DNA from: Micromonospora maritima
GTDB lineage: Bacteria > Actinomycetota > Actinomycetes > Mycobacteriales > Micromonosporaceae
Length of the DNA: 39,685 nt
NCBI RefSeq assembly: GCF_902825405.1
Contig: NZ_CADEAU010000009.1
Span: forward strand, 1 to 39,685
Reading direction: 5' to 3'
The translations under genes were made by a program, and so were the position numbers. The notes beneath the pieces were generated by a model that worked only from the letters and a program-made list of their open reading frames with translations, did not search any database and had not been told where the DNA came from. This document shows, in pieces, positions 2,362-27,236 of this stretch (the first letter of the stretch is position 1; every line of letters begins with the position of its first letter).

Positions 2362-3987
2362 TCAGCCGGCCCGCGCAGTCCGCGCCGGCCGAGCGGTCGC
2401 CGGCGTGGGCGTCGGCAGACCCTGCGCCGGAGTGGCGAGGGGGTCCGCCGGCGTCGGCACCTGAGGCACCTGCGCCGAAGCGGCCGGCACGTCCTGCTGC
2501 GGGCGCGGCGGCCGGGAGCCCGGCGGGCCCTGCGGCGCCAGATCGCTGCCCACCAGCTGCGCGGCCTGCGCGGCCAGCTGAGCCTCGAAGAGCATCTCGT
2601 CGGCCCGCTCGGTCTGCATGCGGTCGATGTCGGCCATCGGGAACTCCCAGATCTTCGACATCCGGGTGCGCCACGGGATGTCCGTGGCCTTCGTGGAGGC
2701 GTCGGCGCGCTCGGCCAGCGACAGGCGCATCGGGGAGCGCCACATCACTTCCAGCTTGGCCAGGTCCGCGCGCTCGCGCATGCCCAGCACCTCGAAGGCC
2801 AGGCTCATCACCCACGCCCACGGGTGCGAGGTGCGGGTGATCCGGTCCTCGCACTTGAACACCAGGTCCTCGCGCTGCGCGCTCGCGCCCTCGGCCGACT
2901 GGTTCTGCCCGCTCGGCATGAACTGCGACATCGGGGTCTTGCTGACCGCGCTGAGGGTCTGGATGTCGTCCTTGGCCTCCTGCAGGATGCCGCTGAGGTC
3001 GACCTGGCCGGACTCCCAGATGTCCGCCGTGGCGGGAAGCAGCCACAGCGCCGCCGGGTCCATGGAGAACACGCCGGTGTAGTCGATGGGCTGGCCGGCC
3101 TTCGGGTGCCCCGCCGGATACTTGTCCGGCACACCCTTGATCGCGCGCTGCTTGTACGCCTGCAGGGTGCTGATCGTCATCCGGTGCAGGACGACGTTGT
3201 TGATCCGGTTGAGGAGATCGATGTGCTCCTCGAACTCGCCCCGGCCGTCCTCGTTGACGAACCGCACCACCGGCATCCGGGAGTGCGGCAGGGCCTGGCC
3301 GCTGGCGCCGCCGCGCTCGGTGTCCCACTCCCAGCTGCGCGGGTCGAAGGACATCACGAACGCCGCGCCCGGGTTCGGCACCGACGTGCCCAGCGGCGTG
3401 CCCACCTGGTTCATCCGGGTGGCCACGTAGACCTTGCCCGGCAGGTACAGGTAGGCCCGGTCGACGCCGTCGACGTCGTCGTGCTGCACCTTCAGCGCCG
3501 CCTGCAGCCGCCACGGGATCGCCGGGTCCGGCTCGCCCACCATCGTGCGCGGGTCCTCGGCGGTGATGACCGGCGCGCCGGTCTCCGCGTCGACGGGCCC
3601 GACGATGACGTAGGCCTCGCCCATCGTCAGCATCAGCTTGTGCAGGTCGGTGGAGCGGACGTCCATGCCGGCGCGCTTCCACAGCGCCGCGGCCTCGCCG
3701 TCGCCGGTCTCGTCGTTGTCGACCGCCGTCCGGAAGCCGGTCGGGGTCATCCGCTGGGCGACCGCGTTGACGATCAGGCCGGCGAAGTTCGAGCGGGACT
3801 GGCGAAGGAAGATCCGGAAGCTCTCGCGGGCGGCCTCCAGCCCGTCGGGCAGCGGGGCCTCGCCGCGCTCGAAGTCGTGCAGCAGCGTCAGCCGGTTGCG
3901 GCGCGTGCGGTCAGCCAGCTGGTTGAACAGCCGCTGCATCCACCACCCCGGGGAGCGCCGCTGGGTCACGTCGATCGCCACCGACAC
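2362..3987 (-). CDS. portal protein, SPP1 Gp6-like
   Basis: The 541-residue product resembles the Gp6-like portal family of siphophages, the dodecameric ring through which DNA enters and leaves the head and on which terminase docks. Visible signs are the N-terminal RRSPGWWMQRLFNQLADRT and YxGE-like LLHDFERGEAPLP segment, the mid-region 'RSWEWD...', 'LLNRINNVVLHRM' (clip/stem region), a long helical region around 'SKTPMSQFMPSGQNQSAEGA', and a disordered Pro/Ala/Gln-rich C-terminal tail of about 70 residues. Size matches the family. The start is GTG at 3987 or GTG at 3981; GGAAGG just upstream suits either. It follows the terminase and one small gene on the same strand. Confidence 0.93.
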   Translation of the reverse strand: MSVAIDVTQRRSPGWWMQRLFNQLADRTRRNRLTLLHDFERGEAPLPDGLEAARESFRIFLRQSRSNFAGLIVNAVAQRMTPTGFRTAVDNDETGDGEAAALWKRAGMDVRSTDLHKLMLTMGEAYVIVGPVDAETGAPVITAEDPRTMVGEPDPAIPWRLQAALKVQHDDVDGVDRAYLYLPGKVYVATRMNQVGTPLGTSVPNPGAAFVMSFDPRSWEWDTERGGASGQALPHSRMPVVRFVNEDGRGEFEEHIDLLNRINNVVLHRMTISTLQAYKQRAIKGVPDKYPAGHPKAGQPIDYTGVFSMDPAALWLLPATADIWESGQVDLSGILQEAKDDIQTLSAVSKTPMSQFMPSGQNQSAEGASAQREDLVFKCEDRITRTSHPWAWVMSLAFEVLGMRERADLAKLEVMWRSPMRLSLAERADASTKATDIPWRTRMSKIWEFPMADIDRMQTERADEMLFEAQLAAQAAQLVGSDLAPQGPPGSRPPRPQQDVPAASAQVPQVPTPADPLATPAQGLPTPTPATARPARTARAG

Positions 3988-4417: not shown

Positions 4418-6156
4418 TCAGCGGAGCCGGATCGGCACGAAGCCGCCGCCCTCGTCGCCCACGCCGGCGGCGCGGCAGTCGCCGCGCGCCTCGAAGGCCA
4501 GCACGGCGGCCATCGCGCCGTCGATCTTGCGGGGGCTCTTCGGGTAGTCCTTCGAGATGGTGATGCCCGAGCGGCTGACCCGGCGACGGGCGTTGAGGAT
4601 GTGCGCCTTGAGCGTGACCGCCCGCGCCTTCTCCTCGTCCATCAGGTCGTACTCGGGGGTGTAGGACAGCTCCTTGGCGCGGACCGCCTCGTAGAAGCGC
4701 TCCAGGGCGCTGACGATCGCCCGGGGGCGATTCGTCCACCACTCAAGCGGGCGACCCTGCGACGCCTTGACCTGCATCTGCTCGCCGTACTCAGCGGTGT
4801 ACTTGTCGCACAGCTCCTGCATGTACGGGGGGTCCATGTACCAGGCGACCACCCGGAAGCGCTGCATCGTGCTGGCGATGAGCGCATCGACGGCCTGCAG
4901 GTCCACCCGCCAGTCGTCGCCGTGGTAGTCGGCCGGCTTCTGGAACGCGCCGAGCAGTTCGATGTGCCCGTCGGAGACTCGGCAGGCGACGACCGCGAGC
5001 GCGTCGTCGCGGACGGCGCCGTCGAGCCCGAGGGTGACCACGTCGCCGTCGACGAGCCTCTTCTCTGCCTTGCCGCAGGCCGCCCACTCCTCGGCCGTGA
5101 TCCAGGCGTCGGACGCGCTGGTCTGGGCGTTGAGGAAGTAGCGCCGGGAGTCCGCGACCTGCTTGCGCGGGTCGTAGAACTCGTCGATGATCGACTCGAT
5201 GTCCTGCCAGGCAATGGCCTCGCCGAACGCCTCCTCGATCGCGACCCGCAGCTGGTCGGCCTTGGTCAGGTCGGCGACCTCGCCCCAGCGGTGGTCGTAG
5301 AGCAGCCGGTGGCGGCGGGTGCGCCCCTCCTTGATCGCCTCGGCCAGCTCGTACGTGGACTCGGCGACGCTGTTCTCTCCAGGGGCGAACATCGTCGTCG
5401 TCTCCAGGTACCAGGTGCCCTCGGCCTTGCGCTTGAGCAGGTTGCGGCTCGTGGTGTCATACATGCGCCGCAGCTCAGGGGTCGTGTAGAGGTGTGTCTC
5501 ATCGAAGGCCACGAATGTTTCGAGGCCACCGTCCTTCGAGGCGGACGACGCGGTCGACGGCCGAATCTCCCCGCCCTCAGGCAGGAACACGCGGGTCAGA
5601 CCGGCATCAACGCCGGGGACGTGCGACAGCGGGCACTCGGCGTCGGTCAGGTTGTAGTAGACCGAGTCGTAGATGTTCCCGCTCTGGCCCTCCTCCGTGG
5701 CCATGATCCGGATCATGGGATAGGCGACCGGCTTGCCCATCGGCTCACCCGGCTGGTAGCGGTAGGCGAAGCCCAGACCCCACGGGTCCCGGTAGACCTC
5801 ACCGCCCTTGGCCCAGCCGGCGAACCGGCAGGGACCCAGCGCCTCGAACAGCGCGAATCGAGCGGCTAGGCCGCTCTTGTCACAGCCCTTGCCTGGGCCT
5901 GGGGCCGGCACGCCGAAGCGCGCCGGCCCCAGGCCTTAGGGCGGCTGAAAAAGACCGAATCGTAAGGGCTTCGCCCGTTCTCATCCAGGGCGTAGCAGTC
6001 GACGATGAAGCCGAGCATCTCGTCACCGTGGCGGATCGGCTGCCCGATCACGCCGCCCCTGCCGTGGCGCACAAAGTGCTCCATCCAGGCCGAAGCGAGC
6101 CATCCAAGGCTGCGGTTGCGGTCAGTGCCCGGCGCTCGCACCAGGGTCCGCGGCAT
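4418..6156 (-). CDS. terL: terminase large subunit, frame interrupted by a hairpin inside Walker A
   Basis: This is the ATPase/nuclease motor that packages and cuts phage DNA. It is encoded by two overlapping frames. The first (6156 to 5935, 74 codons) ends in FFSRPK. The second resumes at 5887 with GCDKSGLAARF and runs 489 codons to 4418. Joined, they give a 563-residue protein of normal family length with Walker A-like SRPKGCDKSG, Walker B FVAFDE (Asp203-Glu204), the coupling motif TTTMFAPGEN, and an RNase H-like nuclease with Asp363 (LGLDG), Asp426 (YMDPP) and Asp530 (KIDG). Neither frame alone makes a working enzyme: read straight on, the first stops at 5866 after a nonsense tail. The 47-nt step between frames is described at 5888-5937. 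A pseudogene is possible, but every other motif is intact and no other lesion is visible. Confidence 0.93.
5888..5937 (-). other. candidate programmed ribosomal bypass element (AAG to AAG, UUCG hairpin)
   Basis: On the minus strand the last codon of the first terL frame is AAG (5937-5935) and the codon before the second frame is also AAG (5890-5888). The 44 nt between begin at once with a 13-bp perfect stem (5934-5922 with 5909-5897) extended by one G-U and three Watson-Crick pairs to a C(UUCG)G tetraloop. A short AGG-containing linker then leads to the second AAG. Take-off codon, adjacent UUCG hairpin, matching landing codon and a gap near 50 nt are the known features of the T4 gene 60 bypass site. 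Skipping the segment restores SRPK-GCDKSG exactly. A simple -1 shift at AAG would add 16 residues inside the P-loop and lacks a slippery heptamer. DNA or RNA excision between the AAGG repeats is the main alternative. Confidence 0.8.
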
Positions 6157-6159
6157 GGC

Positions 6160-6645
6160 TCAGCCCGCCGCCACCCGGGCGCGGCGGTCGTCCATCTGGA
6201 TGACCTTGCCGCCGCCCTTCGCGGCCGTGCCGCCGGCGCCGGGCTCCGGCTCCTCGACGACGTCCTCGACCGGCTCGACGTAGCGGATCATGAGCTTGCG
6301 GCGAGCCTCCCGCGTGAAGCCCATCTGGTCCTCACGCCGGCGGATCTCCGTCGACTTCGTGGTGTGCACGACGCCGGAGTTGTACTCCAGCCACCAGTCG
6401 TTCTTGGCGTACGCGGTCTCCAGGGCGAACAGCCAGTCGGCCGCCTCCCAGAGCACGCAGTGCGGCATCTTCCGCACGACCTCCCACCACGCCTCGACCT
6501 CGGGCAGCCACTTCGGGCCACCGCGCTTCGCCTTCGGCAGGTCGAGGGACGGTCCGTCGTACGGGATGTTCAGCACCTCGGTCCACTCGCCAACGGCGGT
6601 GGCCCTTCCGTGCTTGTTGGCCTTGCCGGCCGGTCCAGGCTTCAT
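6160..6645 (-). CDS. terS: terminase small subunit (probable)
   Basis: The 161-residue product lies directly upstream of terL on the same strand, its stop three bases before the TerL start. It has a basic Gly/Lys N-terminus (MKPGPAGKANKHG), a middle region PKWLPEVEAWWEVVRKMPHCVLWEAADWLFALETAYA, and a C-terminal IRRREDQMGFTREARRKLMIRY segment followed by a Glu/Pro/Gly linker. This pattern, with a conserved Trp-rich 'W...VR' block, matches small terminase subunits of actinophages as I remember them. Such proteins recognise the packaging site and regulate TerL. The start is ATG at 6645 with GGGAG ten bases upstream; an in-frame TTG at 6654 is less likely. Confidence 0.82.
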   Translation of the reverse strand: MKPGPAGKANKHGRATAVGEWTEVLNIPYDGPSLDLPKAKRGGPKWLPEVEAWWEVVRKMPHCVLWEAADWLFALETAYAKNDWWLEYNSGVVHTTKSTEIRRREDQMGFTREARRKLMIRYVEPVEDVVEEPEPGAGGTAAKGGGKVIQMDDRRARVAAG

Positions 6646-6719
6646 GCTGATCAACTCCCATGGCGGGAAGGAGCAGCGCGCCCATGCCGGGTGTCACCGC
6701 TCGCGAGAAGAAGTAGTGG

Positions 6720-7088
6720 TCAGAGCTGCGCTCGCGGGGTCTCTGCGGTCAGCGGCACCTCGTCGAAGTGCTCGCCCTCCAGGACCAGGTGCAGCAGCTG
6801 GGGGTCGTTGGTGACGTACATCCGCACCGCGCGGGTGCCGGGCGGCAGCTTCAGGGCGTTCACCAGCTGCGGCATCGAGAGCACGACCTTGGCCCGCGGA
6901 GACGTCTCCGGCGTCAGGGCCTTCGTCAGCTCCGCGCACGCCGAGCAGTTCTTGTGCGCCTCGGCCGCGGCGGGGCTCTTCGCCAGCGCCCGCATCGTCG
7001 CGGCCGGATTGGCCTCCATGTCCCGGTGAACCTCGCCCGGGTCGAACGCGCTGTACCGGCGCATCTCGGCGCCGCCGAAGCCGCTCAC
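6720..7088 (-). CDS. hypothetical protein (122 aa)
   Basis: No family recognised. The N-terminus is MSGFGGAEMRRYSAFDP, the centre has KNCSACAELTKAL (a CxxC pair), and the C-terminal half looks like a small beta-rich fold (RAVRMYVTNDPQLLHLVLEGEHFDEVPL). The GTG start at 7088 overlaps the stop of the Ntn-hydrolase gene as GTGA, so the two are probably translated together. It lies between that gene and terS. Confidence 0.78.
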   Translation of the reverse strand: MSGFGGAEMRRYSAFDPGEVHRDMEANPAATMRALAKSPAAAEAHKNCSACAELTKALTPETSPRAKVVLSMPQLVNALKLPPGTRAVRMYVTNDPQLLHLVLEGEHFDEVPLTAETPRAQL

Positions 7089-7651
7089 TGGTCGTCCTCA
7101 TCCGCCGGGCCGAGGACCTCGGCGTTGACCGGGCCCTCGGAGAAACGATCGAGCCGGATGCCGGCCTGCGTCGCCCGGACCACCGCATACGCCGGATCGG
7201 CGCCGTCGTCGAGGAGCACGTCCAGGGCGCCCATCGCCGGCCCCTCGCCTGAGCCGATCGCCGCCCGGCCATCCGGGTGCGCGCACGCGCAGGCGTGGCC
7301 GAGGGTCCAGAGGTGGCCGTTCCAGCCGAGCAGCACGCTGCCGGAGAGGCTGCCGTCCTCCAGTAGGCCCGCCTCGGTGGCGATCTCCGTGATCGCGCAG
7401 GCGATGGCGTGCGCCCAGGCGTCGACGTCCTCATCCTCCAGGGGCACGGAGTCGATCTGCAGGCTCGCCTGAATGCATCCCGGCAACCCGCCGGCGCCGG
7501 CCACACCCAGCAGCACCTCACCCAGCGCGCCGGCCTTGAGCCGCAGCAGCTTGCGGATGCCGCCGACGACCGGCCGCTCGTAGACGTTCGTTGCCGAGTC
7601 AGCGGCCATGAAGACCTTGCCGTCAACCGCGGCAGCAACCACCGTCGTCAC
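7085..7651 (-). CDS. Ntn-hydrolase (HslV/proteasome-like) protease
   Basis: The 188-residue product begins VTTVVAAAVDGKVFMAADSA. Removal of the initiator would expose a Thr, and 'TT-(V/I)-V-A...G-x-V-x-M-A-x-D' is the start of HslV and other N-terminal-nucleophile hydrolases: catalytic Thr1, then the Asp of the MAAD/MAGD motif. Later segments LGVAGAGGLPGCIQ and SVLLGWNGHLWTLG fit the central strands of the same fold, where HslV has a Gly-rich GxxG turn. I chose the GTG at 7651 because GGAGG lies four bases upstream and because it places Thr at position 2. Role unknown; a phage copy could process capsid proteins or act on host proteins. No partner ATPase is visible. Confidence 0.8.
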   Translation of the reverse strand: MTTVVAAAVDGKVFMAADSATNVYERPVVGGIRKLLRLKAGALGEVLLGVAGAGGLPGCIQASLQIDSVPLEDEDVDAWAHAIACAITEIATEAGLLEDGSLSGSVLLGWNGHLWTLGHACACAHPDGRAAIGSGEGPAMGALDVLLDDGADPAYAVVRATQAGIRLDRFSEGPVNAEVLGPADEDDQ

Positions 7652-7673
7652 CGCACCTCCAGAGGTTCGGGGA

Positions 7674-7976
7674 CTACAGCAGCCCGGGGTGCTTCTCGGC
7701 CGGCCGGCGCTCGCGGGGCCGCGCTGCGGCGCCCTCCTGGGCGCTCTTCTTCGAGTGGTGCCCAGGGCAGAGCCACTGAAGGTTCGAAAGATCATGATTG
7801 TCGCCAGGCACGATGTGGTCGCAATCCCGGCCAGCCTCCCGGCAGCGGCGGGCGTCATCGCCGATGAACTCGCACCGGCCGCCGGCGCGCTCGCGCACAT
7901 CCGCGCGCAGCTGCTGCCAGTTCGACGGGAGCCTCGATCGGCGCGTGCTCGACGACCACTTCCCAGACACCGGCAC
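7674..7976 (-). CDS. HNH endonuclease
   Basis: The 100-residue product has SNWQQLRADVRERAGGRCEF followed by CREAGRDCDHIVPGDNHDLSNLQWLCPGHHSKK. The DHIVPG, N..NLQ and CxxHH pieces form the HNH/beta-beta-alpha metal site with an extra Cys pair. Small HNH proteins near terminase genes are needed for packaging in HK97-type phages (HK97 gp74), and this one is in the same operon as TerS/TerL. An alternative is a homing endonuclease linked to the hairpin in terL, as MobA is linked to the T4 gene 60 bypass cassette. The start is GTG at 7976 or at 7970, with GGCGAGGGG upstream. Confidence 0.9.
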   Translation of the reverse strand: MPVSGKWSSSTRRSRLPSNWQQLRADVRERAGGRCEFIGDDARRCREAGRDCDHIVPGDNHDLSNLQWLCPGHHSKKSAQEGAAARPRERRPAEKHPGLL

Positions 7977-8597: not shown

Positions 8598-8630
8598 GAA
8601 GCCCCAGGTCAGCTGCTGACCTGGGGCTTC
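8598..8630. repeat. 15-bp hairpin in the leader of the leftward operon
   Basis: A perfect inverted repeat (GAAGCCCCAGGTCAG, 3-nt loop, then its complement) lies just upstream of the first leftward start codon. No T-run follows on either strand, so it is not an ordinary terminator. In the leftward transcript it would form a hairpin in the 5' leader. Confidence 0.65.
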
Positions 8631-9654: not shown

Positions 9655-10040
9655 TGCTTTTTGACAAAACAATACAGCGGCTGTGTCAGACAACATCGGA
9701 CGTGGCGGCATGCGAAACCCGCACTACCCTCCGGGATGGACAGAGGTGCGGAAACCCTTTAAGGATGTGGGTCCCGGTGAGAGACCGGGAAGCGCGCAAG
9801 CGCTGTATCCCTTAGAACGCCGATACCGGCAGTCAAACCGCGTGCTAATAGCGCCATAAGGGCGTGCGGCGGAATGACTGCGCCATGGTCGGAGCGTATG
9901 GCTCCCGCCCGGGGCACCGGAGCACGGGAGTAGAACGCGCGCTGAGTCCGGGAGCAAAGCCCGGAATCCGCAACGGCGGGTAAGCGCAAAAGCTGAACGA
10001 TCGCGGGGGCACCGTGCCTAGTTCGCACGGTGCCCCCCGC
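9655..10040 (+). ncRNA. large structured non-coding RNA ahead of the rightward operon
   Basis: No reading frame here has coding character, but the plus strand is dense with short stems and stable loops: CCGCAC...CTC/GAG...GTGCGG (about 9718-9752), TCCCGGT-GAGA-ACCGGGA, AGCGC-GCAA-GCGCT, a closing AAGGAT/ATCCCTT around those two, CAGTCA/TGACTG around CCGC/GCGG and CGCC/GGCG (9830-9880), GGAGC/GCTCC, CTCCCG/CGGGAG, and TCCGGG/CCCGGA (9945-9964). It ends in the 13-bp hairpin at 10005-10037. A possible TTGACA is at 9661. Large ornate RNAs such as GOLLD and ROOL occur in phages in similar settings, but I cannot match this one to either. Confidence 0.7.
10005..10037 (+). terminator. strong terminator-like hairpin closing the structured RNA
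   Basis: Arms GGGGGCACCGTGC (10005-10017) and its exact complement (10025-10037) enclose a 7-nt loop. No T-run follows (CGCTAAATC), so termination may be partial or the hairpin may protect an RNA 3' end. Confidence 0.6.
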
Positions 10041-13526: not shown

Positions 13527-13904
13527 ATGAAGATCGACCTGCCGATGGGTGCCGACCCGGGGATCCTGTACCGGGCCGGCGAGAAGATCGGCGCGCGGGT
13601 CGAGGTCGCCGGGGGCAGCGAGGTCCGCACCCGCGACGCCGGGCAGCGGATCCGGTTCGACGCCAGGATCCAGCCGCTGCACCCGGACCACTACAGGAGC
13701 CGGGGGTACAACGGCCGGCGGCTCAACGCGGTCTGCTGGCACGGGCACCGCGAGTGGATGCGCGCCATCTACAAGGCGCACCCGGACGCCGTGATCCGGA
13801 CCGCGCTCGCCACCTACCGGGGGGCGAAGCACTTCGAGGACACGCACGAGGACACGATCCGGGAGGGGCTGTCCGGCTCGCAGACCTGCACGTGCGACGA
13901 GTGA
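13527..13904 (+). CDS. hypothetical protein (125 aa)
   Basis: ATG at 13527 with GAGGG seven bases upstream. The N-terminal half is strand-rich and basic (KIGARVEVAGGSEVRTRDAG). The centre reads RGYNGRRLNAVCWHGHREWM and a helical segment with THEDTIREGL follows, ending in a CTCDE tail. The His/Cys-rich middle could bind metal. Not recognised as a named family. Confidence 0.84.
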   Translation: MKIDLPMGADPGILYRAGEKIGARVEVAGGSEVRTRDAGQRIRFDARIQPLHPDHYRSRGYNGRRLNAVCWHGHREWMRAIYKAHPDAVIRTALATYRGAKHFEDTHEDTIREGLSGSQTCTCDE

Positions 13905-13982
13905 CCGTGCGCTGACGGTGCGGGCCGGGCGAGAGTCCGGCCCGCGCCACCTCCGCACGGGAGGAGAGAGGCGGGGCCAAGG

Positions 13983-14312: not shown

Positions 14313-14582
14313 ATGGAGCACGGTGAAGCGCTGGCGGTCGACCACGACAAGATGCGCGAGGCGCTGTCGCTGTTCAGCCGCGCGCTGGACGAGGTCAGCA
14401 ACGCCGGCTACCAGGTGGAGCACGGCCCGTACGAGCGGATCCGCGACGCGGTGGCGGAGCTGGTCGAGGCGGCCTACCCGGAGGTCTGGGGAGAGCGGGT
14501 CGTCTGCGACCGGGTGCTCTACGACAACGGGATCGTCGGGTCACTGAATGCGGCCCTGACCCGGGCGGGAGTCGCGCGCTGA
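14313..14582 (+). CDS. helical hypothetical protein (89 aa)
   Basis: ATG at 14313 with GAGG seven bases upstream. Product MEHGEALAVDHDKMREALSL is nearly all helix (FSRALDEVSNAGYQVEHGPY, IRDAVAELVEAAYPEVW), acidic, and ends RAGVAR. Not recognised. Flanked by type A elements. Confidence 0.82.
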   Translation: MEHGEALAVDHDKMREALSLFSRALDEVSNAGYQVEHGPYERIRDAVAELVEAAYPEVWGERVVCDRVLYDNGIVGSLNAALTRAGVAR

Positions 14583-14650
14583 CGGTGGCCGCCGGGCCGG
14601 TGGGTCCGGCGGTGCGCCGCCTCCGCGCGGAGGAGAAACGAGGTTCGATC

Positions 14651-15047: not shown

Positions 15048-15674
15048 ATGCCGCGCACCATCACCAAGGAGTGGACCGTCTACACGTTCGAGGAGCTGAC
15101 CGAGGAGGCGCAGGCGAAGGCCGTCGAGAAGCTGCGCGAGCGGCGGGCGAGCTACTTCGACGAGCACGACCGGGAGACCATCGGCCAGGACATCGTCTAC
15201 ACCCTGGCGGAGAAGTTCCGCTCGCCCGGCTGGGACACCTTCGGTGCGGGCGACTTCCCCGGGATCGACCGCGTGCAGATCGACGGGTGGAGCATCGACT
15301 ACCCGCTCTACGTCGAGGCGAGCGGCGCGCTCGACCGGGAGAACGCCCCCGCGCTGCCGTGGGTGGACGAGATCGAGCGGGTCGATCTGGAGGCGGGCCG
15401 GCACTACACCCGGATCAGCGTGGTGGAGGCCGACCCCGAGTGCACCTGCACGTCGGACCCGTACGCCCCGCACGATGAGGGCTGCCCCACGCTCACCGCG
15501 CCGAGGCTCTCGGAGGACGCGGAGGGGGCGATGGAGCAGGCCGTGCGGGACGCGCTGCACGACGCCGCCAAGGCCGGGGAAGCCGAGTGGGAGTACATGA
15601 CCGGCGAGGAGCGGGCGAGGGACGAGGCCGTCGACATGGAGCTGGAGTTCGAGGAGGACGGCACGCCGTTCTGA
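15048..15674 (+). CDS. acidic hypothetical protein of a recurrent phage type (208 aa)
   Basis: ATG at 15048 with AGGG seven bases upstream. It begins MPRTITKEWTVYTFEELTEE followed by AQAKAVEKLRERRASYFDEH. The opening 'vYtFdELseeAqekAiek..' is a pattern I know from phage proteins of unknown function. The middle holds a globular part (DFPGIDRVQIDGWSIDYPLY) and the C-terminal third is acidic and helical (EEGCP-like segment CTCTSDPYAPHDEGCP, then a long helix). Very acidic overall. Function unknown. Confidence 0.86.
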   Translation: MPRTITKEWTVYTFEELTEEAQAKAVEKLRERRASYFDEHDRETIGQDIVYTLAEKFRSPGWDTFGAGDFPGIDRVQIDGWSIDYPLYVEASGALDRENAPALPWVDEIERVDLEAGRHYTRISVVEADPECTCTSDPYAPHDEGCPTLTAPRLSEDAEGAMEQAVRDALHDAAKAGEAEWEYMTGEERARDEAVDMELEFEEDGTPF

Positions 15675-15754
15675 CCGTGCGCTGACGGTGGCCGCCGGGC
15701 CGAGAGGTCCGGCGGCGCGCCACCTCCGCACGGAGGAGAGAGGCAGGGCTCACG

Positions 15755-16339
15755 ATGAGCGAAGCGATCGAGCGGGTGCAGGTCCTCCACGGCCACACGG
15801 GCGAGGAGTCCGCGTACCTGGTCGAGGACTACCCGTACGGGTTCCGGCTGCGGTGCCAGATCCGGTACTGGATCGAGACCGCCGAGAAGGGGGCCAAGAA
15901 GGGGCAGCAGCGGCTCATGTCCCAGACCACGAACCCGAAGAAGCCCGGGGAGCCGTGGAACAAGCCGAAGGGCAGCACCTACGTGCTGATGGCCGTGATG
16001 TACCTGGACGGGGAGGGCCACGTGCAGTGGACCGGCGTGAGCGAGTACGGGCTGACCCCCGTGCACGACGCACGCTGGCGGCTGTGGGGCGTCGTCGACC
16101 AGCTCGACGACGAGCAGCGCCGACTGTACGACCTGCTGCTCAAGGCGTCGCAGCGCTCCGCCCGGCAGTGGGAGGAGTGGGAGGAGCGCGTGAGCCGCGT
16201 CGCCGACCACATCCGCGAGACCGGGCAGGAGCCGGAGCTGGTCAACGGCATCTGGAAGCTGCCCACCGGCGGCACGCTCTACATGCTCGACGCCATGCCG
16301 GAGATCGTCGCGTACGCCCGACAGCGGCTGGACGGCTGA
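15755..16339 (+). CDS. hypothetical protein (194 aa)
   Basis: ATG at 15755 with AGGG six bases upstream. Two parts: a strand-rich N-terminus (SAYLVEDYPYGFRLRCQIRY, WIETAEKGAKKGQQRLMSQT, TYVLMAVMYLDGEGHVQW) and a helical C-terminal half (EEWEERVSRVADHIRETGQE). Proteins with 'A.lV.DYPYGfrLRc..RyWiE...kGqR..sQT.NPK' recur in actinobacterial phages, without an assigned role that I know. Confidence 0.86.
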   Translation: MSEAIERVQVLHGHTGEESAYLVEDYPYGFRLRCQIRYWIETAEKGAKKGQQRLMSQTTNPKKPGEPWNKPKGSTYVLMAVMYLDGEGHVQWTGVSEYGLTPVHDARWRLWGVVDQLDDEQRRLYDLLLKASQRSARQWEEWEERVSRVADHIRETGQEPELVNGIWKLPTGGTLYMLDAMPEIVAYARQRLDG

Positions 16340-16418
16340 CCGCGCGCTGATGGTGGCGCACCGGCCCCCGGGTCGGCGCGCTGCCACCTCCGCGTGGAGG
16401 AGAAAGGCAGGGGCTGTG

Positions 16419-16755: not shown

Positions 16756-17007
16756 ATGTCGCAGACCGTGCTCCAGAAGGGCGAGCTGTACCCCGTCGCG
16801 CCGGGCGAGCCGCTGCCGCGGGGCGCCGGCCGCCAGAACCTGCGGGTGAAGGCCACCGGCGAGAAGCGTCCGCCGCGCAAGGGCGAGTGGTACCTGTCCG
16901 GCGCGACCATCGAGGGCTACCGGGCACCGAACGACCTGACGCAGGAGCACCAGATCGGCGAGCTGGTCGAGGGCGAGACGGTGACCATCTGGCGCTCGAA
17001 GGGCTGA
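16756..17007 (+). CDS. small beta-rich hypothetical protein (83 aa)
   Basis: ATG at 16756 with GAGG seven bases upstream. Basic, Gly/Pro-rich, strand-turn sequence (QKGELYPVAPGEPLPRGAGR, KRPPRKGEWYLSGATIEGYR, GELVEGETVTIWRSKG), typical of a small barrel. Not recognised. Confidence 0.82.
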   Translation: MSQTVLQKGELYPVAPGEPLPRGAGRQNLRVKATGEKRPPRKGEWYLSGATIEGYRAPNDLTQEHQIGELVEGETVTIWRSKG

Positions 17008-17090
17008 CCGTGCACCGACGGTGCCGCGCGGGCCGAGCTGGTCCGCGCGGCGCCGCCCGTCGCACGGCGGGAGGAAGTGAGGGGCGAGAT

Positions 17091-19637: not shown

Positions 19638-19979
19638 ATGGAGGTCACGCGACCCGCGTACGTGCTTGACCACCCGCGCGGGTGGCGGCACCTGTACCGC
19701 TTCCCCAACGGGCTCGGCGCGTCGGTGATCCCGTACAACCCGGCCGTCGCGGACCTGACGCAGGGCACGGTCGACGTGCTCTTCATCGAGTGGAGCGGCG
19801 CCGGGCCGGACGACTGGACGGAGTGGAAGCCGCAGGACTGGGCGGCCGTGGAGGACTTCATCCGGCAGGTCGACAGTCAGGGGGGTGATGTCTACTACGG
19901 AACGGGCGGCTGCGAGCTGGAGTGCGTGCCGGAGGCCGAGGTGCCGGCGCTGCTCCAGCTCATCGCCGCGCTGCGCTGA
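19638..19979 (+). CDS. hypothetical protein (113 aa)
   Basis: ATG at 19638, three bases after the previous stop; GGAGGG lies in the end of the upstream gene. The fold looks alpha/beta (WRHLYRFPNGLGASVIPYNP, VDVLFIEWSGAGPDDWTEWK, VPALLQLIAALR). No type A element before it, consistent with coupling. Not recognised. Confidence 0.83.
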   Translation: MEVTRPAYVLDHPRGWRHLYRFPNGLGASVIPYNPAVADLTQGTVDVLFIEWSGAGPDDWTEWKPQDWAAVEDFIRQVDSQGGDVYYGTGGCELECVPEAEVPALLQLIAALR

Positions 19980-20055
19980 CGTGCGGGTGATGGTGGCTGC
20001 CGGGCTTCGGTCCGGCCGCTGCCACCGCCGCACGGCGGAGGAATGAGGCAGGACG

Positions 20056-21992: not shown

Positions 21993-22256
21993 ATGGGGTC
22001 AACCACGCAGGTGCGCAGGGGTGTTACCAACTGGTCGGTAGACGACATGGCTGGGAGCTTCGAGATCTGCGAGCTGATCGGAGCGACGCGCCAGCAGGTA
22101 ACCAATTGGCAAGAGCGGGCGTCTTCGGGATTCCCGGAGCCGCTGCTTCGCCTGCGGTGCGGACCGGTGTTCAGCCGGACGGAGGTGCTGGAGTGGTGGG
22201 AGTGGTACCAGCACACGCCTAAGCATGTGGCGGCGATGGAGCGCACCGCGCGTTGA
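21993..22256 (+). CDS. AlpA/excisionase-like helix-turn-helix protein (87 aa)
   Basis: ATG at 21993 with AAGGAG seven bases upstream. The segment SFEICELIGATRQQVTNWQE followed by RASSGFPEPLLRLRCGPVFS and RTEVLEWWEWY is the winged-helix layout of AlpA and related excisionase-like proteins: 'EI.e.lGvsrqqV..W..r..FPeP...l..g.vw...eV..W'. It could be a regulator or a recombination directionality factor; no integrase is seen in the window. Confidence 0.85.
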   Translation: MGSTTQVRRGVTNWSVDDMAGSFEICELIGATRQQVTNWQERASSGFPEPLLRLRCGPVFSRTEVLEWWEWYQHTPKHVAAMERTAR

Positions 22257-22327
22257 CGGTGGCCGCCGGGCCGATGGGTCCGGCGGCTCGCCGCCTGCCG
22301 CGCGGCAGGAGGAAGGGGCGCTGAACA
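22257..22327 (+). repeat. type A element copy, outer stem CCGCGCG/CGCGCGG
   Basis: Left outer arm 22246-22252 overlaps the last codons of the upstream gene; right arm is 22299-22305. The inner stem GGTGGCCGCCGGGCC / GGTCCGGCGGC...GCCGCC is kept. Confidence 0.83.
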
Positions 22328-26917: not shown

Positions 26918-27201
26918 GCGACGGAATGGACAAGCGCATGGTGGGGGCGGTCAGCGACTGGCTGAACCGGCTCCCGTTCGAGCGCGAGGAACTGCTGCGG
27001 GCGCTCGGCGACGAGTACGTGGAGTCGATGGAGCGCGCCGACCATTGGATCGATCGGGAGAGGGAGTTCCGCCTCGGCCGGGTCGACGAGGTGCTGCTGC
27101 ACGCCTACCTGACCGACCAGCTGCGGATGCTGGACCCGGGGACGGTGGGTGATGCGGCGGGGATCGCCGCAGCGCTCGTCATCCGGGCAGCTAAGGGCTG
27201 A
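26914..27201 (+). CDS. hypothetical protein (95 aa)
   Basis: TTG at 26914 overlaps the previous stop as TTGA and has GGAGG seven bases upstream; the ATG at 26926 (MDKRMVGA) is 19 bases from that site, so TTG is preferred. Acidic and helical (VSDWLNRLPFEREELLRALG, DEVLLHAYLTDQLRMLDPGT). It is the last gene before a terminator. Not recognised. Confidence 0.8.
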   Translation: MSDGMDKRMVGAVSDWLNRLPFEREELLRALGDEYVESMERADHWIDREREFRLGRVDEVLLHAYLTDQLRMLDPGTVGDAAGIAAALVIRAAKG

Positions 27202-27236
27202 AGAAGGGGCCACGCATTGACGTGGCCCCTTCTTTC
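27201..27236 (+). terminator. Rho-independent terminator
   Basis: Starts at the last base of the stop codon of the gene at 26914. A 14-bp perfect stem AAGAAGGGGCCACG with CGTGGCCCCTTCTT encloses a 6-nt loop; the 3' side is T-rich (TTCTTTC). Confidence 0.88.

Follow-up and report, generated by a model that had tools for sequence, protein, structure and literature searches.

Predicted hairpin inserts at one codon junction of the large terminase gene in related phages, possibly crossed by hopping ribosomes

The gene for the large terminase subunit (terL) in the window, that is, the whole stretch of 39,685 bases analysed here, which is a single contig (G000:C9) of a 6.23-Mb draft genome, is interrupted by a 47-nt block within its Walker A codons. 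Ribosomes probably hop over this block, from an AAG codon at 5937-5935 to the AAG that precedes the codon GGC, and full-length TerL would then be made with no residue gained or lost. Pfam and PHROG matches give the gene order head maturation protease, portal, TerL and small terminase on the minus strand. The terminase small subunit (6160..6654, minus strand; Pfam PF25673, Terminase_7, E 4e-13) lies upstream of terL and the portal protein (2362..3987, minus strand; Pfam PF05133, PHROG 104) downstream, and both are intact. Beside the terminase genes is an ORF (7085-7900) that weakly matches an HslV-family peptidase in PHROG (1e-6). The N part of terL (5935..6156, minus strand) extends over 74 aa from the ATG to the proposed take-off codon, ends in FFSRPK and consists of ordinary conserved TerL sequence, and the C part (4418..5887, minus strand) extends over 489 aa from the resume codon GGC, with which the Walker A residues GCDKSG begin, to the stop. 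Both parts are TerL according to their matches to PHROG 9 (E 1e-5 and E 4e-50, respectively), and they are 91% and 88% identical to the corresponding parts of L029, the closest relative in IMG/VR. The frame is broken only once. The preliminary description had placed this break correctly, with the N part ending CGC CCT AAG (5937-5935) and the C part resuming GGC TGT GAC AAG AGC GGC at 5887, and had also given its size correctly, 44 nt from AAG to AAG and 47 nt from AAG (5937-5935) to GGC (5887-5885).

The insert (5888..5934, minus strand), as delimited by alignment with L029, comprises 47 nt that uninterrupted relatives do not have. A stem-loop is predicted at 5896..5935 (minus strand), with arms at 5918-5935 and 5896-5913, a UUCG loop at 5914-5917, and 18 pairs, of which 17 are Watson-Crick and one is G.U. 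Pairing begins with the third base of AAG (Lys; 5935..5937, minus strand), the proposed take-off codon; the hairpin directly at take-off and its UUCG loop are as first described, but the stem has 18 pairs rather than 17, with that third base included. The predicted energy is -46.9 kcal/mol (z = -6.9), and none of 200 dinucleotide shuffles folded as stably. The stem is the longest among the five hairpins with at most one mismatch listed for the window. The other strong hairpins are at 703-742, 8598-8630, 10005-10037 and 27201-27234, and those at 8598 and 27201, which have look-alikes at matching places of G167, the record that holds L029, are perhaps terminators. In a single fold of the region, the hairpin is accompanied by a weak stem-loop on the 5′ side and a 7-bp stem-loop on the 3′ side. 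The zero frame is closed by a TAG (5866..5868, minus strand) 22 codons past the Lys, and the frame of the C part by a TAA (5936..5938, minus strand) that overlaps the take-off codon.

As to the origin of the insert, AAGG stands on both sides of the palindrome, and the insert ends resemble a 4-nt duplication. Because an insertion duplicating AAGG would create matched AAG codons without selection, the match alone is weak evidence for a hop. A repeated mobile hairpin was considered and rejected, since the 135-nt junction matches only itself and its own inverted arm in its own genome, and two exact copies of one arm elsewhere in that genome are not hairpins. No exact match of the 26-nt stem-loop core was found in viral contigs, and 66 nt around the stem-loop gave only weak partial matches (best E 2 in phages and 0.1 in plasmids). 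The window yielded no Rfam family at gathering score and no tRNA. A homing endonuclease stands near T4 gene 60; none was detected by Pfam near terL among ten ORFs each of the window and L178, which were chosen by eye and some of which may be in the wrong frame. Elsewhere in the window, repeats of 60-80 nt are dispersed at 13895-13964, 14573-14642, 15669-15748, 16333-16403, 17003-17083, 19975-20049 and 22245-22314; some of them contain imperfect hairpins, and they cross-match several places of G167.

Among 105 relatives fetched, one of the searches having kept the best 80 of 98, 103 include upstream sequence, while L091 and L092 begin inside the gene. In all 103 (86 of them distinct around the junction) SRPK is directly joined to GxxKSG, in the form GxDKSG or GxNKSG; the search for the uninterrupted motif suggested in the preliminary description therefore identifies the 47 nt as a true extra block in the window. 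L029 is itself uninterrupted, and most of its record is collinear with the window. In the database, the window TerL has its two best matches in Micromonospora strains: P0133 (85% identical) is uninterrupted, and P0134 (77%), whose entry has no first part and starts with MGKP, is possibly broken at the junction too. Between the window and L029, dN/dS is 0.15 in both halves of TerL. Of 146 columns that are conserved across 99 other TerLs, 7 deviate in the window, near the top of the 0-8 range in the set, and 5 in L029, five of the positions being common to the two. By these measures the window terL seems no more visibly decayed than its uninterrupted sister, and the same data would fit a recent hit. 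When window ORFs were compared with those of G167, only terL, among the gene-like matches, needed two frames; the remaining rows in which stops or a second frame occurred were ORFs antisense to genes, a low-complexity match and an ORF extended into non-coding sequence.

The core reading of the preliminary description is strengthened by the presence of different hairpins at this junction in further phages. Viral contigs were scanned in degenerate DNA for RPK, a gap and GxDKSG or GxNKSG, with patterns that covered gaps up to 62 nt (those of 1-31 nt with Ser AGC only) and Arg codons other than CGT, CGA and AGR, and the scans returned 10, 15, 81 and 83 stretches, some of them repeated. Four different inserts were found in this way between SRPK and GCDKSG in five further viral contigs, the insert of L172 being that of L170; further hairpin insertions at this point, which the earlier reading had proposed to look for, thus exist. 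Each begins right after AAG, and they measure 47 nt in L170, L178 and L267 and 50 nt in L183. Unbroken stems of 20 (L170), 18 (L178), 21 (L183) and 18 (L267) pairs are predicted, all starting from the third base of the take-off AAG, and for none of the five inserts, that of the window with its 18-bp stem included, did 2000 simple shuffles give a stem this long. In all five the loop has 4 nt (UUCG for the window and for L267, GCAA for L183), and a tail of 4-8 nt leads to GGC. The codon after take-off is GCC in the window and L178, GGT in L170, GGC in L183 and GCG in L267. The codon before the resume codon is UAG in L170, CAA in L183 and AAG in the other three, so that the proposed landing codon of the window (5888..5890, minus strand) recurs at the same place in L178 and L267, which are homologous to each other. 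The tail CCCGGGTAAG is identical in L178 and L267, and the window insert shares 24-25 of its 47 positions with these two, so that the three may have a common descent. Among candidates that were set aside, L094, L095, L298, L314, L098 and L220 are intact TerLs in which RPK occurs upstream by chance. For other TerL families, a scan for RPK, gap and G(C/R/W)xK, with Arg CGC only, gave 63 loci and no TerL with an insert at this junction.

The bases that depart from Watson-Crick pairing indicate the level at which the stems are maintained. There is one such pair in the window, and there are four in L178, three in L267, five in L170 and two in L183; the three of L267 are shared with L178, which leaves 12 distinct pairs, and in the terL mRNA every one of the 12 is G.U, with no A.C among them. 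Since a palindrome kept as DNA should show both kinds, G.U without A.C points to pairing of RNA and not of DNA. Three of the twelve stand at the stem base (L170 and L183), where the fold program may favour G.U, and the nine inner ones are unbiased. The sense fold is also more stable than the antisense fold in all five inserts. The pairing indicates that selection on the stem acts at the RNA level. Palindromes between short direct repeats are deleted by replication slippage, and the AAGG on both sides of the window palindrome would suit gain or loss of the block in DNA by this route, with a minority of phage genomes being whole. The G.U-only stems are against it, as is the nearest direct repeat in L183, which would remove 51 and not 50 nt, and we regard slippage as a very improbable account.

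In the L178/L267 lineage the block can also be dated relative to its surroundings. Both TerL halves are constrained between the two (pS.57 and.52, pN.16 and.20 for the N and C halves, respectively), and 41 of the 47 insert positions agree; the changes are three in the loop, one compensatory pair from C-G to G-C and one from U.G to C.G. In the flanks, up to 20 codons each way, the third position differs in 14 of 30 codons whose residue is conserved; in the insert, 6 of 47 bases differ (Fisher p 0.0014). Because the flanks are more diverged than the insert, the block is old and conserved in this lineage and did not arrive recently with its flanks. That an essential gene keeps an old out-of-frame block is most simply explained by expression despite it. 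Taken together, the five stems, their G.U pairs, the conservation between L178 and L267 and the constrained halves argue against a pseudogene, an assembly error and readings at the DNA level. Inactivation of terL in a prophage by a selfish or accidental hairpin, so that TerL is not made, would agree with the uninterrupted state of the window's nearest relatives and with the isolation of the window genome: among 394 class genomes searched, 21 match at E 1e-40 and the exact-junction break occurs only in this one, which is also the only one of 160 genus genomes with this TerL subfamily at E 1e-70. A family search, in which 6 of 354 genomes match at E 1e-70, likewise showed the exact-junction break only in the window genome. 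We nevertheless consider inactivation unlikely. Both halves are under constraint in all the genes that carry an insert; L178 and L267, far diverged as they are, have both retained the block, with a compensatory change in it; and in the comparison of the window with G167 the two-frame state is confined, among gene-like matches, to terL. The window insert itself could be recent, as L029 and P0133 do not have it and as its 7 deviant columns come close to the maximum of 8 in the set.

About two dozen more TerLs in the database are probably broken at this junction, to judge from their protein sequences. A search with the C part of L178 gave 1339 relatives, and among the best 120 of these, 92 have a contiguous N part and 28 do not; 19 of the 28 fall in the best 27, mixed with uninterrupted proteins. 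Three of the 28 have other residues before the P-loop (P0003, PGK/GCDKSG; P0015, RGK/GCDKSG; and P0038) and 25 start after it; two of the 28, P0001 and P0025, are L178 and L183 themselves. Some of the shortened entries may be explained by contig ends, start-codon choice or sequencing errors. The N part of L178 gave 12 matches, of which five pass from SRPK into unrelated residues; when the phase is read by hand, the gap is 56 nt in P0121, 47 in P0122 and P0124 and 46 in P0125, and P0123 is unreadable. P0125 with P0027, P0121 with P0041 and P0122 with P0065, each pair from contigs of equal size, are probably the two ends of one gene. As far as the proteins tell, the landing codon is probably not AAG in P0121, P0122 and P0038. 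P0024 and P0043 carry an extra block of about 130 residues between MDE and THLY, which we take to resemble a mini-intein. The C part in L172 (835-2739; 635 aa) is longer than its relatives and perhaps contains a block of the same kind; Pfam found no intein domain in it. If it is of the P0024/P0043 kind, that terL is interrupted twice.

The proposed bypass would proceed as follows. The Lys-tRNA in the P site would leave AAG as the very stable stem, whose first base is the last one of this codon, folds again; once folded, the stem would bring the gap ends within 4-8 nt; and the peptidyl-tRNA would re-pair with the second AAG (in other phages with a codon that nearly matches), whereupon decoding would resume at GGC. 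Non-hopping ribosomes would end 22 codons on and release a fragment of 96 aa, so that the hop rate would set the amount of the packaging motor. This reading is preferred because it has a precedent in T4 gene 60 and, as proposed, in the same gene and motif of phage phiHau3, because AAG precedes GGC in the window and in L178/L267, and because the take-off codon anchors the stem, which is also the case in gene 60. Its weak points are the missing stop or slow A-site codon, the long stem, and the unmatched UAG (L170) and CAA (L183). Minimal pairing can reportedly suffice, as the title of a study by Herr in 2004 has it (cited in PMC3014915), and bypass may not need strictly matched codons.

The main rival to bypass is excision of the block from the mRNA, in which the hairpin would guide cutting and ligation and the ribosome would read a continuous terL. 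The junction is always exactly K/G while the codon before GGC varies (AAG, UAG or CAA), a variation that is no obstacle to excision but hard to reconcile with codon re-pairing; the pairing is conserved at the RNA level, and the gap length appears free (DNA gives 47 and 50 nt, and P0125 and P0121, read by hand, give 46 and 56 nt). We know of no bacterial process that removes a hairpin of 40-50 nt and rejoins the mRNA, however, and the window has no Rfam family at gathering score. Excision would also require neither AAG before GGC in the window and L178/L267 nor the identical CCCGGGTAAG tail of the latter two, and our confidence in it is low.

Reading of the insert by a programmed -1 frameshift, which would add about 16 residues in the P-loop, was called unlikely in the preliminary description, and we find it highly improbable, even if the gap is 2 modulo 3 in all five DNA-verified inserts and such a shift seems to occur at this P-loop in a different TerL family (L118, L121 and L429). 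No slippery heptamer of the form X XXY YYZ was seen by eye in the window insert. The frame of the C part opens 16 codons before GGC in the window, 0 in L170, 9 in L178, 1 in L183 and 16 in L267, and with an overlap of 0 or 1 codon in L170 and L183 there is no shared site; P0125, moreover, implies a gap of 46 nt (1 modulo 3). It is scarcely credible that TerL is made as two chains, with the C part starting alone at an internal codon and assembling with the N fragment. A GTG (5909..5911, minus strand) does open a mechanical C ORF of 497 aa, but it lies in the 3′ arm of the stem, and no ribosome-binding site was seen ahead of it by eye. In L170, GGC is immediately preceded by a TAG, and a chain started on its own would lack the Walker A codons, yet GCDKSG is kept both there and in five aligned C parts (four insert-bearing ones and L029).

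The P-loop codons of terminases are broken in further ways. In the GWGKSP-type TerL of L118, L121 and L429 (G127, G132 and G559, of the window's genus), the frame changes by -1 exactly at GWGK/SP. All three have the heptamer GGGAAAA, an AGGAGG whose end lies 11 nt before it and, after it, a predicted structure of -25 to -34 kcal/mol, and six loci of five relatives (L119, L120, L123, L125, L430 and L431, with L119 and L430 being the same gene) read straight through at GWGKSP. A -1 shift stimulated by a Shine-Dalgarno (SD) sequence is a known mechanism of this shape, and the three genes appear to use a programmed -1 frameshift. In L348 (G432:C1, one genome of the class set), GWGK (AAG), CCAAG and SPLVAAL follow one another, as AAG-CC-AAG with five extra bases, and the break lies a few codons beyond the junction of the window. 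In the TerL of L428 (G736:C111), the frame of the P-loop (SRSKGCDKSG) differs from that downstream, with a break within about 70 codons after the P-loop. The occurrence of different devices at one P-loop motif suggests that their purpose may be to limit TerL synthesis.

To a wider reading we give an even chance. A family of ribosome-hop hairpins would occupy one junction of the packaging ATPase, in which sequences turn over and a take-off-anchored RNA stem is kept; together with the phiHau3 gap and the GGGAAAA shift, the actinophage terminase P-loop would be a recoding checkpoint, invented independently by several lineages to limit synthesis of the motor. If ribosomes do hop at this junction, bypass would be a recurrent route to the expression of an essential gene and not a one-off, and the supply of the packaging motor may be set by recoding. 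Gene callers would also be missing or shortening an essential phage gene, as in the 28 of the best 120 proteins without an N part. With different stem sequences, lengths, loops and landing codons at a single junction, the natural variants would provide a comparative system, in which conservation would reveal the needed parts.

In the literature searched, among the best matches listed and in the available text of PMC5009743, no hairpin bypass in a terminase was found, and the nearest case is phage phiHau3 of Streptomyces, for whose terminase that text describes a likely bypass at KGWG before UUA (PMC5009743). In the phiHau3 record (JX182369; L159 2329-3995), KGWG is followed by 10 extra bases, TTACTCCGGT, and then by KDPLLAV, and the terminase is annotated only as a misc_feature. 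The gene and the P-loop are the same as here, but the gap of 10 nt is too short for such a hairpin, the TerL family is different and the break lies three codons further on; the phiHau3 gap is also tied to the UUA codon in the text cited (PMC5009743), and there is no UUA at the window junction. Short blocks are likewise skipped in translation in Magnusiomyces mitochondria, where 81 bypass sites in 12 of 15 genes are tied to relaxed mitochondrial decoding and landing codons are not always perfectly matched, according to the same text (PMC5009743); here, in contrast, one site of one phage gene family is read by bacterial ribosomes.

T4 gene 60 is described in the available texts as a phage gene in two frames, with a gap of about 50 nt and a take-off stem-loop that has a stabilising tetraloop (PMC5009743; PMC3014915; PMC11194080), and as the one thoroughly studied bacterial bypass over tens of bases (PMC5009743). 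It shares with the window terL the two frames of one protein, the size of the gap (47 nt here), a tetraloop stem-loop that includes the take-off codon (predicted here with 18 bp and UUCG) and, as proposed here, a product with no gap residue. Matched take-off and landing codons are common to gene 60, the window, L178 and L267, unlike L170 (UAG) and L183 (CAA). The preliminary description had called the element T4 gene 60-like, and this holds for an insert in Walker A with matched AAG codons and a hairpin at take-off; it does not hold for the stop that follows take-off in gene 60, in whose place the window has GCC and none of the five inserts has a stop, nor for the GAG six bases 5′ of the landing codon, in whose place the window has CCAGGCAAG, with AGG one base before landing and no GAG, nor, in two of the five inserts, for the landing codon. 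The A-site stem-loop of gene 60 is small as far as the text of PMC11194080 goes, whereas the GC stem of 18-21 bp here fills nearly the whole gap. The codon is GGA for Gly in gene 60 and AAG for Lys here, and a topoisomerase there corresponds to a packaging motor here. By analogy, the insert would work like T4 gene 60, and derivation from the gene 60 element is not claimed. Among T4-related phages with a sequence available by 2010, bypass seems to be confined to T4 gene 60 (PMC3014915), whereas the inserts described here recur in several phages with different sequences.
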